A stretch of 64,000 nucleotides of DNA, from positions 186,001 through 250,000 of the forward strand of contig NZ_JAJAGO010000008.1 of the NCBI RefSeq assembly GCF_025165795.1, written 5' to 3'. How positions within the stretch are numbered: position 1 is the stretch's first letter; each line of letters starts with the position of its first letter. This document shows positions 1-11,299 of this stretch, piece after piece. Origin of the DNA: Streptomyces gossypii. GTDB lineage: Bacteria; Actinomycetota; Actinomycetes; Streptomycetales; Streptomycetaceae. The translations under genes and the position numbers were made by a program. Under the pieces are notes generated by a model that was given only the letters and a program-made list of their open reading frames with translations, made no database searches and was not told the DNA's origin.

Positions 1-330
1 CCGGCCGAGCAGACCTTCGCGACGCTGATCGGCCTGGAGCTGCGCCCGAGGCGGCTGCGGGACGCGGCTCGGCTGTGGGCCTCGCTGGCGGACGCGCGGG
101 GCGCGGACGGCCGCGACGGTCTGTGGGCGCACCCGGACATGCTGCCCACGGCGGCCGACCTGGACGACCCGGACGGCTTCGTGCACCGCGAGCAGCTGGA
201 CTTCTCCGAGCTGGACAAGCTGCTGGGTGACGCGGCGGAGGGCCGCCCGGACGACGACGAGGGCGGCAGCGGAAGCACCGGCGACAGCGGTGGCAAGGGG
301 ACGGGCGGCGACGGCGGCCCCCGTCCATGA
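1..330 (+). CDS. Zincin-like (DUF2342-type) metalloprotease homologue, C-terminal end only
   Basis: The reading frame is open from the first base, so the start lies outside the window and only about 109 C-terminal residues are visible. The sequence begins PAEQTFATLIGLELRPRRLR and continues through LWAHPDMLPTAADLDDPDGF. From memory this resembles the C-terminus of the actinobacterial DUF2342/zincin_2 family, but the zinc-binding motif is not in view. The last 35 residues are a Gly/Asp/Ser-rich, probably disordered tail. The stop overlaps the start of the next gene as ATGA, so the two are probably translationally coupled. The family assignment rests on conserved C-terminal phrasing only. Confidence 0.6.
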   Translation, partial: PAEQTFATLIGLELRPRRLRDAARLWASLADARGADGRDGLWAHPDMLPTAADLDDPDGFVHREQLDFSELDKLLGDAAEGRPDDDEGGSGSTGDSGGKGTGGDGGPRP

Positions 331-7986: not shown

Positions 7987-8349
7987 TCATGCCACAACCG
8001 GGTTCTTGCGGGGACGGCCACGCGGCCGCTTGCGCGGCACGACGACGCCCTGGACGAAGAGCTCGCCGCCCCAGACACCCCAGGGCTCACGCCGGTCCTT
8101 CGCACCGGCGAGGCATGCGTCACGCAGCGGGCAGGTCTGGCAGAGCGACTTCGCGTACTCGACATCAGCGGGAGCCTCGGCGAAGAAGACCTCCGGGTCG
8201 TACGAGCGGCACGGCACGGCGACGCCGAGGCGCTCAATTGCCTCGTCGAGCGCGGTGAGAGTGGTGAGCGGGGCGGTCAAGGTGTCCTCCGTGGCGTCGG
8301 GCGGGATCAGGTCGGTGGTCGGTGACGTGGCGTGCGTCTCGATCTGCAC
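7987..8349 (-). CDS. wblC: WhiB7/WblC-type iron-sulfur transcription factor
   Basis: A 120-residue Wbl protein with the four iron-sulfur cysteines C47, C70, C73 and C79, the GVWGGE turn at residues 91-96 and a C-terminal AT-hook RGRPRK at residues 110-115. The AT-hook is specific to the WhiB7/WblC subfamily, which activates intrinsic resistance to translation-targeting antibiotics together with the primary sigma factor. The uvrD2-whiB7 neighbourhood is conserved in actinobacteria. A roughly 540-nt leader precedes it with an upstream frame, a hairpin over that frame's stop codon and an intrinsic terminator, the layout expected of ribosome-mediated attenuation. Start at the ATG at 8349. Confidence 0.93.
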   Translation of the reverse strand: MQIETHATSPTTDLIPPDATEDTLTAPLTTLTALDEAIERLGVAVPCRSYDPEVFFAEAPADVEYAKSLCQTCPLRDACLAGAKDRREPWGVWGGELFVQGVVVPRKRPRGRPRKNPVVA

Positions 8350-8423
8350 TGTCGGGTCTTCCTCGTCTTTTGGTCTGTCGTCTGGTCGGCCCGGCTGGTG
8401 GCCGGGCGGCTGGGGAAAACAGA

Positions 8424-8458
8424 AGGGCCGCGGATCCCGATGTGGGTTCCGCGGCCCT
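8424..8458 (-). terminator. Intrinsic terminator (attenuator) in the wblC leader
   Basis: Perfect 11-bp stem (8458-8448 with 8434-8424 in transcript order) with a 13-base loop, followed on the minus strand by the U-rich run TCTGTTTTCC. It lies 75 bp upstream of the wblC start and 26 bp after the stop of the upstream reading frame. This is a true intrinsic terminator by sequence, placed where it would block wblC transcription by default. Confidence 0.82.
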
Positions 8459-8470
8459 GGAAGGTACCGA

Positions 8471-8489
8471 CCTGATCTTGCTGATCAGG
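8471..8489 (-). promoter_or_regulatory. Leader hairpin spanning the upstream-frame stop codon
   Basis: A perfect 7-bp stem (8489-8483 with 8477-8471) and 5-base loop. The TGA of the upstream reading frame (8487-8485) lies inside the 5' arm, so a ribosome terminating there would melt it. This could couple translation to the downstream terminator choice. Confidence 0.55.
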
Positions 8490-8775
8490 CTGGATCTCTC
8501 CAGGGATCGTGGCCACGGAAGGCCCACATCGAGTGCTGCTGCGTCTTCTGGCTTCCTTCGCCGGCACCGTTGGCTGCAAATGCAGAGACATAGGACTGCG
8601 CCTGTGCCACTGCCGCCGCGGGTGCCTTGATCGGTCGCTCATCGCCGCCGAGCCGCTCATTACCGCCGACGAGCACGACACCGGACACACCGGCGCTGTG
8701 CAGGCGGACAGAGGGCAGGCAGGAGGCAATCACCGAGTGACCGGTCAGTTTGGTGGTGTTGATGAGGTCAATCAC
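8485..8775 (-). CDS. Upstream reading frame in the wblC leader (96 codons)
   Basis: A GTG-initiated frame of 96 residues (VIDLINTTKLTGHSVIASCL at its start, RGHDPWRDPA at its end) with an ideal ribosome binding site, AAAGGAGG, eight bases upstream. The third codon position is roughly three-quarters G or C, lower than in neighbouring genes. Its stop sits in a leader hairpin just before the terminator. The best reading is a regulatory upstream frame whose translation reports ribosome function, as known for whiB7 leaders. It could also be a small independent protein. I recognise no domain. Confidence 0.6.
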   Translation of the reverse strand: MIDLINTTKLTGHSVIASCLPSVRLHSAGVSGVVLVGGNERLGGDERPIKAPAAAVAQAQSYVSAFAANGAGEGSQKTQQHSMWAFRGHDPWRDPA

Positions 8776-8892
8776 TGGGCTCGCCTCCTTTCGGCGTCTT
8801 GAGGGACCGGTCGAAGCTGGTCCGTGGATGTTCAGCGTTCAGTACAGCATGGAAAGCTCGGTGCGAGTAGCCCCGCCCTGTCCACGTCTGGA

Positions 8893-8930
8893 AGGCTATG
8901 AGGCTGCGTGCCGCTGGCGCAAACTATTTT
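8893..8930 (-). promoter_or_regulatory. Candidate wblC promoter
   Basis: On the minus strand, AAAATAG (8930-8924) directly precedes a -35-like TTGCGC (8922-8917), then 18 bp, then TAGCCT (8898-8893), matching TTGnnn and TAnnnT. An AT-rich block just upstream of -35 is the reported WhiB7-type promoter feature. It overlaps the uvrD2 stop codon and predicts a start near 8886. Confidence 0.45.
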
Positions 8931-11299
8931 CCCGTCTGTTCTGTAACAGCCTCTGTGACAGGCTCCGGGTCAGACTCTGCGGCGGCGTCTGTGACGGGCT
9001 CCGGGACAGGCGCGACGACTGGTTTCTCGCCCGCTTCCCCGCTTGCTTCCCCGTCCGCCTCAGCGCCGGGCTCCCCGCCCGCGCAGAGGGCCAGTACGTC
9101 GGCCCCGAAGCGGTCCAGCTTGCGGGCACCCACCCCGGAGATCCGAGACAGCCCGGCCGCGTCGTCCGGCACCGTCTCCGCGATGGCCATCAGTGTCTTG
9201 TCCGTGAAGACGCAGTAGGCAGGCTGGCCGAGCTCCTTGGCCTGGCCCGAGCGCCACTCCCGCAGCCGGTCGTACAACTGCTCGTCCAAATCCGAGGGGC
9301 AGCCCTCGCAGCGCATCAGCTTCATCTCTCCGGCATCGGTCAGGGTGCGCCCGCACACCCGGCACAGCACCGGGCCGCGCCGCTTGCGCCCCCGGCCGCC
9401 ACCGCCGCGCTCGACACCGCCGGCTCCGCCGCCGCCCGCCGTACGGGCACCGGACGTCGAGGAGCCCGGCCGCAGTCCGTTGAGGAAGCGGCTGGGGCGG
9501 CGTCCGGCGCGGCCGCCAGGGGAGCGGGAAAGCGCCCAGGAGAGCCCGAGGTGGAGCCGGGCCCTGGTCACCCCCACATACAGCAGCCTCCGCTCCTCCT
9601 CGACCTGCTCGTCCGTCTTGGCGTAGGTGATCGGCATCATGCCCTCGGTGAGACCCACCAGGAAGACGGCGTCCCACTCCAGCCCCTTGGCCGAGTGCAG
9701 CGAGGCGAGCGTGACGCCCTCGACCGTCGGCGCGTGCTGGGCGTTGGCCCGCTCGTCCAGCTCGGCGACGAAATCCGCGAGCGCGGCCTGCGGGCTGGCC
9801 CGGCGGAAGTCCTCCGCCAGCCGCACCAGGGCGGCCAGCGACTCCCAGCGGTCCCGGACCGCCCCCGAACCGGCCGGCGGCTCCGTGGTCCACCCCCGGG
9901 AGGTCAGCACCGCCCGCACCTGGGAGGGCAGGTCCACCGCGTCGTCCAGCAGGGTGTCGTTCCCCCCGGCGCGCGCCGCGCCACGCAGTGCGACTCCTGC
10001 CTCGCGCACCTCGGCACGCTCGAAGAACCGCTCGGCGCCACGGAGCTGGTACGGCACCCCCGCGTCGGCAAGTGCCTGCTCGTACACCTCGGACTGCGCG
10101 TTGATCCGGAAGAGCACGGCGATCCCGCTGGCGGGCACCCCGGAGTCGATCAGCGCGCGGACCCGCTTGGCGGTGCCCTCGGCCTCGGCGGGCTCGTCCG
10201 GGTACTCGCTGTAGACCGGGTCGGGGCCCGCCTCGCGCTGGGAGATCAGCTCCAGCCGGTGCTCAGCGGCACGGCCCCGGGCCTGACCGAGCAGTCCGTT
10301 GGCGAGGTGCACGACCTGTGGGGTGGAGCGGTAGTCGCGGACGAGCTTCACCACCGTCGCGTCGGGGTGCCGGGTACGGAAATCAAGCAGGTGGTCGGGG
10401 GTGGCGCCGGTGAAGGAATAGATCGTCTGGCTGGCGTCGCCGACCACGCACAGGTTGTCGCGGTCGCCCACCCAGAGCTCCAGCAGACGCTGCTGCAAGG
10501 GGCTGACGTCCTGGTACTCGTCCACGACGAAGTGCTGATACTGGCCGCGCACCGTCTCCGCGATGTCCGGGCGGTCCTGGAGCACACCGACCGCCAGCAG
10601 CAGCACATCCTCGAAGTCGATCACCGAGCGGTCCCGCTTCAGCTGCTCGTAGAGCGCGTAGATCCGGCCGGTCTCCGCCGGGTCGCGCGGGGCTTCGCGG
10701 CCGGATTTGGCCAGCGCCGCCGGGTAGTCCTCCGGCACGGCCTGACTGACCTTGGACCACTCGATCTCCGCGGTGACATCGCGCAGTTCGTTGCGGTCGA
10801 GCCGGATACGGCAGCGCGCGGCAGCCTCGGCCACCAGCTGGATCTTGCGCTCCAGCAGCTGGGGCAGCTCGCCGCCGACCGCGCGCGGCCAGAAGTACTG
10901 GAGCTGGCGCAGCGCGGCGGAATGGAAAGTCCGCGCCTGGACACCGGTGGCTCCGAGCTGGCGCAGCCGCCCGCGCATCTCGCCCGCGGCGCGGTTGGTG
11001 AAGGTGACGGCGAGAATGCTCGCGGGCGGCAGTATCCCGGCCCGCACCCCGTAGGCGATCCGGTGCGTGATGGCCCGGGTCTTGCCCGTGCCCGCCCCGG
11101 CCAGCACGCACACGGGCCCGCTGAGGGCCGTGGCGACCGCACGCTGCTCGGGGTCGAGCCCCTCCAGCACGGCGTCGGCGTCCTGCGGCGGCAGCACGTA
11201 GTCGGAGCGGACCGCGGCCCCGGGGGCAGGCGGGGCGCCGGGATCCTGAGTTGCCTGGGATGCCTGGGGGAAGAGAGTGCTGTCCGTTGCTCCTGTCAC
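8924..11299 (-). CDS. uvrD2: ATP-dependent DNA helicase UvrD2
   Basis: A 791-residue superfamily 1A helicase. Walker A GAGTGKT at residues 68-74, the Walker B region DEYQD near 259, and later helicase motifs including LHSAKGLEWDAVF and YVGVTRARLHL are all present. Two features assign it to UvrD2: a tetracysteine zinc module (CRVC near residue 645, CEGC near 660) and a C-terminal HRDC-like domain (LSRISGVGARKLDRFG). It starts with GTG and ends in an acidic repeated tail (EPVTDAAAESDPEPVTEAV). Mycobacterial UvrD2 is an essential 3'-5' helicase whose tetracysteine motif is important. The gene is divergent from mycoredoxin and immediately upstream of the wblC leader. Confidence 0.93.
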   Translation of the reverse strand: MTGATDSTLFPQASQATQDPGAPPAPGAAVRSDYVLPPQDADAVLEGLDPEQRAVATALSGPVCVLAGAGTGKTRAITHRIAYGVRAGILPPASILAVTFTNRAAGEMRGRLRQLGATGVQARTFHSAALRQLQYFWPRAVGGELPQLLERKIQLVAEAAARCRIRLDRNELRDVTAEIEWSKVSQAVPEDYPAALAKSGREAPRDPAETGRIYALYEQLKRDRSVIDFEDVLLLAVGVLQDRPDIAETVRGQYQHFVVDEYQDVSPLQQRLLELWVGDRDNLCVVGDASQTIYSFTGATPDHLLDFRTRHPDATVVKLVRDYRSTPQVVHLANGLLGQARGRAAEHRLELISQREAGPDPVYSEYPDEPAEAEGTAKRVRALIDSGVPASGIAVLFRINAQSEVYEQALADAGVPYQLRGAERFFERAEVREAGVALRGAARAGGNDTLLDDAVDLPSQVRAVLTSRGWTTEPPAGSGAVRDRWESLAALVRLAEDFRRASPQAALADFVAELDERANAQHAPTVEGVTLASLHSAKGLEWDAVFLVGLTEGMMPITYAKTDEQVEEERRLLYVGVTRARLHLGLSWALSRSPGGRAGRRPSRFLNGLRPGSSTSGARTAGGGGAGGVERGGGGRGRKRRGPVLCRVCGRTLTDAGEMKLMRCEGCPSDLDEQLYDRLREWRSGQAKELGQPAYCVFTDKTLMAIAETVPDDAAGLSRISGVGARKLDRFGADVLALCAGGEPGAEADGEASGEAGEKPVVAPVPEPVTDAAAESDPEPVTEAVTEQTGK

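Follow-up and report, generated by a model that had tools for sequence, protein, structure and literature searches.

The wblC/whiB7 attenuator was described by Lee, Lee & Roe (2022; Mol Microbiol 117:179), whose work is given here as relayed in passages of later papers (PMC11550727, PMC12421871, PMC10727445, PMC13393426, PMC9618640 and PMC12121999). By these accounts, the leader of Streptomyces coelicolor wblC/whiB7 contains a WblC promoter, an upstream open reading frame (uORF), an intrinsic terminator and an antiterminator that overlaps uORF and terminator, and induction by ribosome drugs and by amino-acid starvation is reported. Passages of PMC7157823 name wblC autoregulation plus attenuation by the uORF, and give the WblC promoter consensus as GAAAWY-3-TKGMNN-16..19-TANNNT. 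The mycobacterial whiB7 leader, as presented in parts of PMC4128351 (M. bovis and M. marinum) and PMC13236596 (M. tuberculosis), is alike in having a uORF about 10 nt after a Shine-Dalgarno (SD) sequence, a U-tailed stem-loop near the uORF 3' end and a high ratio of 5' UTR signal to gene signal. In the M. tuberculosis excerpt stalling is stated to induce whiB7, and a figure legend describes ribosome-profiling and Term-seq tracks over the leader. The are5sc and tiaA leaders of S. coelicolor, as outlined in PMC12421871, also combine a uORF with a proposed choice between terminator and antiterminator and with a response to ribosome drugs, but differ from wblC in having uORFs of 3 and 9 codons, a stall at the start codon and a response specific to a single group of drugs; a transcriptional reporter of tiaA is described in that text as constitutive. 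The Escherichia coli toiL-topAI leader, likened here by its description in part of PMC12121999, not by sequence, belongs to a different gene and organism, yet in it, too, one uORF responds to several classes of ribosome drugs, with stalls at different codons. The same 2025 text states that antibiotic stalling within the whiB7 uORF was hitherto untested.

The leader reported here is very probably a transcription attenuator of whiB7/wblC, a kind of system that is already known from the published attenuation of this gene; set against the citing papers' accounts of the S. coelicolor leader, which share the gene, it showed no difference in kind. It lies in the window, by which is meant the whole 64-kb stretch of Streptomyces gossypii DNA analysed. 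The order read from the sequence of the minus strand is promoter, uORF, stop-codon hairpin, intrinsic terminator and wblC, and the features are as follows.

8893 to 8931, minus strand: WblC-type promoter, GAAAAT-3 nt-TTGCGC-18 nt-TAGCCT, by the consensus of PMC7157823.
8784 to 8791, minus strand: SD sequence of the uORF, AAAGGAGG, 8 nt 5' of the GTG, from the sequence.
8485 to 8775, minus strand: uORF of 96 codons with GTG start and TGA stop, from the sequence and from a homologous frame in 145/145 same-genus leaders.
8621 to 8626, minus strand: 5' strand of a helix inside the uORF, GGCACC, codons K-A-P, partner 8568-8563, from pairing in 145 sequences and covariation.
8563 to 8568, minus strand: 3' strand of that helix, GGTGCC, on the same evidence.
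8512 to 8520, minus strand: putative antiterminator segment 1, 5' strand TTCCGTGGC, codons A-F-R-G, partner 8455-8447, from duplex prediction, pair scan and permutation.
8498 to 8504, minus strand: putative antiterminator segment 2, 5' strand CCTGGAG, codons P-W-R, partner 8462-8456, from duplex prediction, pair scan, permutation and two-sided changes.
8490 to 8503, minus strand: competing short hairpin, CTGGA-GAGA-TCCAG, from the sequence and a conserved 5-bp helix in the pair scan.
8471 to 8489, minus strand: stop-codon hairpin of 7 bp, CCTGATC-AGCAA-GATCAGG, from the sequence and class-wide two-sided changes.
8447 to 8462, minus strand: putative antiterminator 3' strand, overlapping the terminator 5' arm, from duplex prediction, pair scan and covariation counts.
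8416 to 8458, minus strand: intrinsic terminator including the U-tract 8424-8416, from the sequence and conservation.
8358 to 8364, minus strand: SD sequence of wblC, GAGGAAG, weak, from the sequence.
7987 to 8349, minus strand: wblC, the WhiB7 orthologue, 120 aa, with a WhiB domain (PF02467) and an RGRP motif, from that match and the sequence.

The wblC product contains RGRP and GVWGG, which we take to be the AT-hook and the WhiB turn, respectively. It matched the general WhiB family model PF02467 at E = 1.4e-14, and an NCBIfam search of it gave no match. It is by far the best among seven WhiB-like matches in its own genome; of 199 same-genus genomes, 197 gave a WblC match at E <= 1e-30, and the 80 named relatives that ranked best are Streptomyces or Streptomycetaceae. 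The gene starts with GTG at 8349. The terminator stem ends 74 nt before this start, and the 74-nt spacer holds an extra hairpin, CCCGGC-CACCA-GCCGGG. The upstream neighbour on the minus strand is a uvrD-like gene for a UvrD-type helicase with an HRDC domain, with its stop at 8924. Immediately 3' of wblC, inside a longer listed frame, lies a basic 56-aa frame (7837-7667, minus strand), possibly a small gene sharing the wblC transcript; beyond it, a Cys-rich 58-aa frame (7564-7388, minus strand) gave a sub-threshold match to the TFIIB-type zinc ribbon PF08271 (22.6 bits, cut-off 29). A search of the whole window with the Rfam 15 covariance models returned no match at gathering score, and a search of 8340-8960 returned nothing but a snoRNA on the opposite strand at E = 0.75.

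The promoter consists of GAAAAT at 8931-8926, a -35 element TTGCGC at 8922-8917 and a -10 element TAGCCT at 8898-8893; it overlaps the 3' end of the uvrD-like gene, and transcription is expected to start near 8886-8885. The window's promoter matches the published consensus exactly, as do 27 of the 145 same-genus leaders and 9 of 96 others. A relaxed form, which was defined after the window sequence had been seen, was found in 145/145 same-genus leaders and 50/96 others, and in none on the reverse strands (0/145 in the same genus).

A sequence-only reading of this DNA had proposed a 96-codon GTG frame with an SD sequence, a TGA in the 5' arm of a 7-bp hairpin and, 26 nt on, an 11-bp terminator; the promoter and the antiterminator are additions to it. 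In the minus-strand reading the frame at 8775-8485 proved correct to the base, and hairpin (8489-8471) and terminator (8458-8424) were both confirmed. The uORF TGA (8487-8485) sits within the 5' arm of the hairpin. The main helix of this hairpin is conserved class-wide: in 76 class-wide sequences 67.8% of its cells are paired and 6/6 pairs show two-sided changes, and the putative stop-codon hairpin is part of the conserved set. The terminator starts 26 nt beyond it, with an 11-bp stem (8458-8448/8434-8424) followed by an A.A mismatch, 3 bp of CCC/GGG and, as tail, TTCTGTTTT. It was the top-scoring hairpin of the window's leader in a separate hairpin scan; a simple terminator scan with an 8-nt loop limit did not list it, probably owing to that limit and the internal mismatch. 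In the 76 sequences 98.0% of the terminator-helix cells are paired, with 5/9 pairs invariant. In many lineages of the class the stem at 8457-8425 (minus strand) has the same bases and the same unpaired A.A mismatch (GGA-A-CCC / GGG-A-TCC), a base identity that would seem to exceed the needs of a plain terminator.

The leader sample comprised 253 leaders, 145 of the same genus and 108 that represent other families in the order and the class (14 of the 15 order-level and 94 of the 119 class-level genomes with a match). Some of the 145 represent one genome obtained via two collections, and 86 of the 145 remain, by ungapped comparison, after those with at least 80% identity over uORF and terminator are dropped. 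uORF and terminator were found together in 145/145 same-genus leaders and in 97/108 others. Among the 11 misses, nine lacked the terminator pattern (seven of these from genomes of 1.2-1.4 Mb) and two lacked an SD-bearing uORF; the covariance model gave weak matches in some of the 11. A 6-base SD match precedes 141/145 same-genus uORFs. The uORF spans 88-126 codons in the 145 same-genus leaders (median 107) and, as picked automatically, 23-202 codons in the 97 others (median 78); by these medians the frame, called unusually long in the sequence-only reading, is of ordinary length for its family, although it may deserve that description beside classical leader peptides. When the uORF was required to have at least 20 codons, a 6-base SD match and a stop lying 18-32 nt ahead of the terminator, 223 of 242 leaders passed, these 242 being the subset of the 253 in which terminator core and uORF had already been found; at random reverse-strand positions of the same leaders a fraction of 0.001 of 1210 trials passed.

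Some lineages depart from this pattern. The seven leaders from the 1.2-1.4 Mb genomes (L251-L255, L257 and L260) have a G+C of 0.48-0.51, versus 0.68 in the other outside-genus leaders, and lack the usual terminator core; in five of the seven there is another hairpin with a T-run, which may be a divergent form of the switch. Some leaders of the sampled set have diverged arms, GGCCACGG...CCGTGGCC, and at a guess these are mycobacterial. Streptomyces philanthi bv. triangulum is an insect symbiont. Its leader (L114) has W-P and S in the last uORF codons where the other 144 have W-A and W, and no WblC start motif of the expected kind was found there, which gives the impression of a switch in decay.

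Pairing between the uORF tail and the terminator was examined with a conserved-helix scan of the 145 same-genus sequences over the well-occupied codon columns and the terminator region. The top three helices, of 8 bp each, were TTCCGTGG:CCGCGGAA, CCCTGGAG:CTTCAGGG and the terminator stem. TTCCGTGG:CCGCGGAA and CCCTGGAG:CTTCAGGG connect F-R-G and P-W-S codons of the uORF with bases immediately preceding and inside the terminator 5' arm, so that antiterminator and terminator are mutually exclusive. Covariation within the genus was nil for the two segments (sum z 3.0 and -1.2), as they hardly vary in Streptomyces. The competing hairpin at 8490-8503 was likewise without covariation (sum z -0.1); it could hide segment 2. 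The window's antiterminator is predicted to be a bulged 16-bp duplex of -25.4 kcal/mol. Class-wide mutual information in a fixed register was noisy because Streptomyces and the other lineages are shifted by one base in register; per-sequence duplexes with permutations were used instead, and whole-leader RNAalifold served only for leads.

The duplex tests were run on 93 representatives of the 242 leaders (clustered at 90%; 11 same-genus, 82 others). The native duplex of uORF tail and terminator arm was stronger than dinucleotide shuffles (Wilcoxon p = 2.7e-14), than the duplex with a stretch further upstream in the uORF (native better in 63/93, p = 1.5e-8) and than duplexes with tails swapped from other species (p = 9.0e-10). 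The effect per sequence was modest, with a median z of -1.55, 34/93 leaders below -2 and 13 beating all 100 shuffles. Exact complements of at least 6 bases were found in 44/93 leaders for segment 2 and in 41/93 for segment 1, versus fractions of 0.19 and 0.23, respectively, with swapped tails, and the observed complementarity totals were reached by 0/300 permutations for each segment. Segment 2 occurs across the class in matched forms (CCTGGAG:CTCCAGG, CCTCGAG:CTCGAGG and others); segment 1 is imperfect, its pairs forming in about 29-77% of the class-wide rows. The predicted matching of tail to terminator arm is native-specific across the class.

Covariation was counted in an alignment, A1, of 76 sequences, 10 of the 86 offered having been picked by eye and left out before counting. 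The score of antiterminator plus stop hairpin was 0.208 versus 0.148 in shuffled alignments (0/500), that of stop hairpin plus terminator was 0.135 versus 0.076 (0/500), and both dropped when the partner was slid by 1-3 columns. With all 86 sequences, antiterminator plus stop hairpin scored 0.203 versus 0.154 (0/500), little changed from A1. The antiterminator alone scored 0.205 versus 0.168 (0/500), falling with a slid partner, and 62.8% of its cells were paired, versus 59.5% shuffled and 28.9-51.7% slid. Two of five measures for the antiterminator alone were not above shuffles, namely the pairs with two-sided change (8 versus 8.4 shuffled, 415/500) and the pair types (28 versus 25.4 shuffled, 70/500); A1 behaved similarly. 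The shuffles ignore relatedness, which can inflate the other covariation measures. Covariation is thus support for the predicted antiterminator, not proof of it.

The following course of events is proposed. RNA polymerase would start at the WblC-activated promoter and transcribe the leader with its long uORF. Ribosomes completing the uORF would cover its last codons (segment 2), open up the stop hairpin and prevent the antiterminator from forming, and the terminator at 8458-8416 would then end transcription, as published for the family. In the presence of an antibiotic, or when amino acids are short, ribosomes held upstream of the A-F-R-G codons, within the preceding ~80 codons, would leave both segments free to pair with 8462-8447, including the terminator 5' arm, while the 3' arm has yet to be transcribed; with the antiterminator formed, polymerase would read through into wblC, and WblC would then boost its own promoter. 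Complete translation should favour termination, and stalling should favour read-through. A long uORF would offer many stall sites, as would suit a sensor that responds to many unrelated drugs. By free-energy minimisation the terminator conformation had the lower energy in 92 of 93 leaders (-57.6 versus -45.6 kcal/mol for the antiterminator in the window's leader), and pairing of segment 2 by itself is compatible with the terminator. With the terminator favoured at equilibrium, antitermination would need co-transcriptional (kinetic) trapping, in which the antiterminator forms first. Ribosome-mediated attenuation, which had been put forward from the letters alone, is supported by the anatomy of the leader, its class-wide conservation, the native-specific pairing of tail and arm, and published work on the same gene.

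Several other explanations of the leader were weighed against attenuation by stalled ribosomes. It is extremely unlikely that the hairpins control wblC translation or mRNA stability and decay instead: the long spacer with its further hairpin before the wblC start would suit such a role, whereas the core of the terminator shows almost no variation, the alternative pairing involves the terminator arm and not the SD sequence of wblC, and the papers citing Lee, Lee & Roe (2022) place control at termination in their accounts. A trp-type amino-acid attenuator, with a defined run of, for example, alanine codons to sense one charged tRNA, would agree with the reported induction of whiB7/wblC by starvation and with a uORF that is 17% Ala with conserved GCA codons. 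The neighbouring UvrD-like protein, the one protein used for comparison, is itself already 14% Ala (110/791), no run of one codon lies at the switch point, and the inducers reported in the cited excerpts are several classes of ribosome drugs; this explanation is considered improbable.

The sequence-only reading had also suggested that the long frame may make a functional small protein; the terminator would then merely end the transcript of that protein, and wblC would be expressed by leakage. The strong SD sequence, the retention of the frame in all 145 same-genus leaders and some conserved residues speak for a protein, as do the gaps, which are enriched for multiples of three (54% of 4076 in the uORF versus 17% of 2231 in the spacer over 450 pairs, a third being expected by chance). 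The predicted reading frame is kept while most residues vary. In the well-occupied columns of the uORF body, dN was 0.352 and dS 0.347, with a median dN/dS of 1.04 (2984 pairs), a ratio that does not equal neutrality because nucleotide-level constraint lowers dS and inflates it; the other two frames gave 0.75 and 0.87. WblC of the same species (motif-anchored, 142/145 sequences) had a dN of 0.030, a dS of 0.445 and a dN/dS of 0.06 (2987 pairs), so that dN of the uORF body is more than ten times higher. The uORF length varies, Pfam and NCBIfam searches of the peptide gave no match at E <= 0.001, and a search for it in 33 outside-genus leaders gave nothing better than E = 0.06. The conserved residues lie on conserved codons, indicative of constraint at the nucleotide level. 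The small protein was thus not borne out, and we consider it very improbable.

Across the same-genus leaders the frame shows nucleotide-level conservation in the last 14 codons and in scattered rare codons. In the last 14 codons, pi was 0.05, 0.08 and 0.14 at positions 1-3, and GAA (122/122) and CCA (143/143) are fixed among the sequences having that residue; the window has GAT for GAA. Counted in the same way, rare codons scattered in the uORF body are conserved as AAA (130/131), CGA (143/144), GCA (130/143) and TAT (117/123), whereas in WblC of the same species they make up 1%, 1%, 2% and 2% (6/290) of the codons for their amino acid. Third-position G+C was 0.77 in the uORF body versus 0.92 in WblC, and outside the genus 0.85 in the uORF versus 0.93 in WhiB7 (uORFs of more than 40 codons, among 32 lineages with control).

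The helix inside the uORF, GGCACC:GGTGCC, is fully paired in 133/145 sequences with G-U allowed and broken in 12, and has the two-sided variants GGCGTC:GGCGCC (8) and GGCATC:GATGCC (2). In the window its GGCAC:GUGCC pairing lies 76-139 nt upstream of the uORF stop. This predicted helix accounts for part of the rare-codon constraint, and not for AAA and TAT, for example. A second helix within the uORF, CGGTCGT:GCGACCG, and a local hairpin, ACCGA:TCGGT, showed no clear compensatory change and are not claimed. We suggest tentatively that the Streptomyces uORF may act as an RNA for timing and sensing and not as a gene for a peptide, its conserved rare codons and internal helix setting where ribosomes slow relative to polymerase.

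A covariance model, R1, was used to assess the specificity of the element. In the window's own genome, where 150 out of 13715 candidates from a first look were scored, wblC was the sole locus matched, with one match on each strand. In the class, a search of 148 genomes gave 135 rows, 112 of them at WhiB7 on its strand and 20 antisense at that place, where the terminator is palindromic. The three rows away from WhiB7, in two genomes, are hairpins just 3' of stop codons. The idea that other genes borrow the leader module was dropped, as 132/135 rows lie at WhiB7 and the remaining three resemble ordinary terminators. A WhiB7 protein match is carried by 130 of the 148 genomes, and under stricter filters R1 was found at the gene in 112 of these and was absent in 18, which is not an independent rate, since R1 was built largely from the same genomes. 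With the window lacking any Rfam match, and the element present at WhiB7 in that many of the sampled genomes, a covariance model would be a useful annotation.

What does this leader mean for the family? Intrinsic resistance of actinomycetes to antibiotics that target the ribosome is under WhiB7/WblC control, and the comparative map of antiterminator pairs, stop hairpin and conserved codons provides the exact bases to mutate for the question of stalling within the uORF. The single part that merits more study is the constraint on codons and helix within the uORF. If the timing and sensing reading is true, the leader would have a second, earlier switch inside its coding region, which would help to account for the sensing of many unrelated ribosome drugs by one leader.
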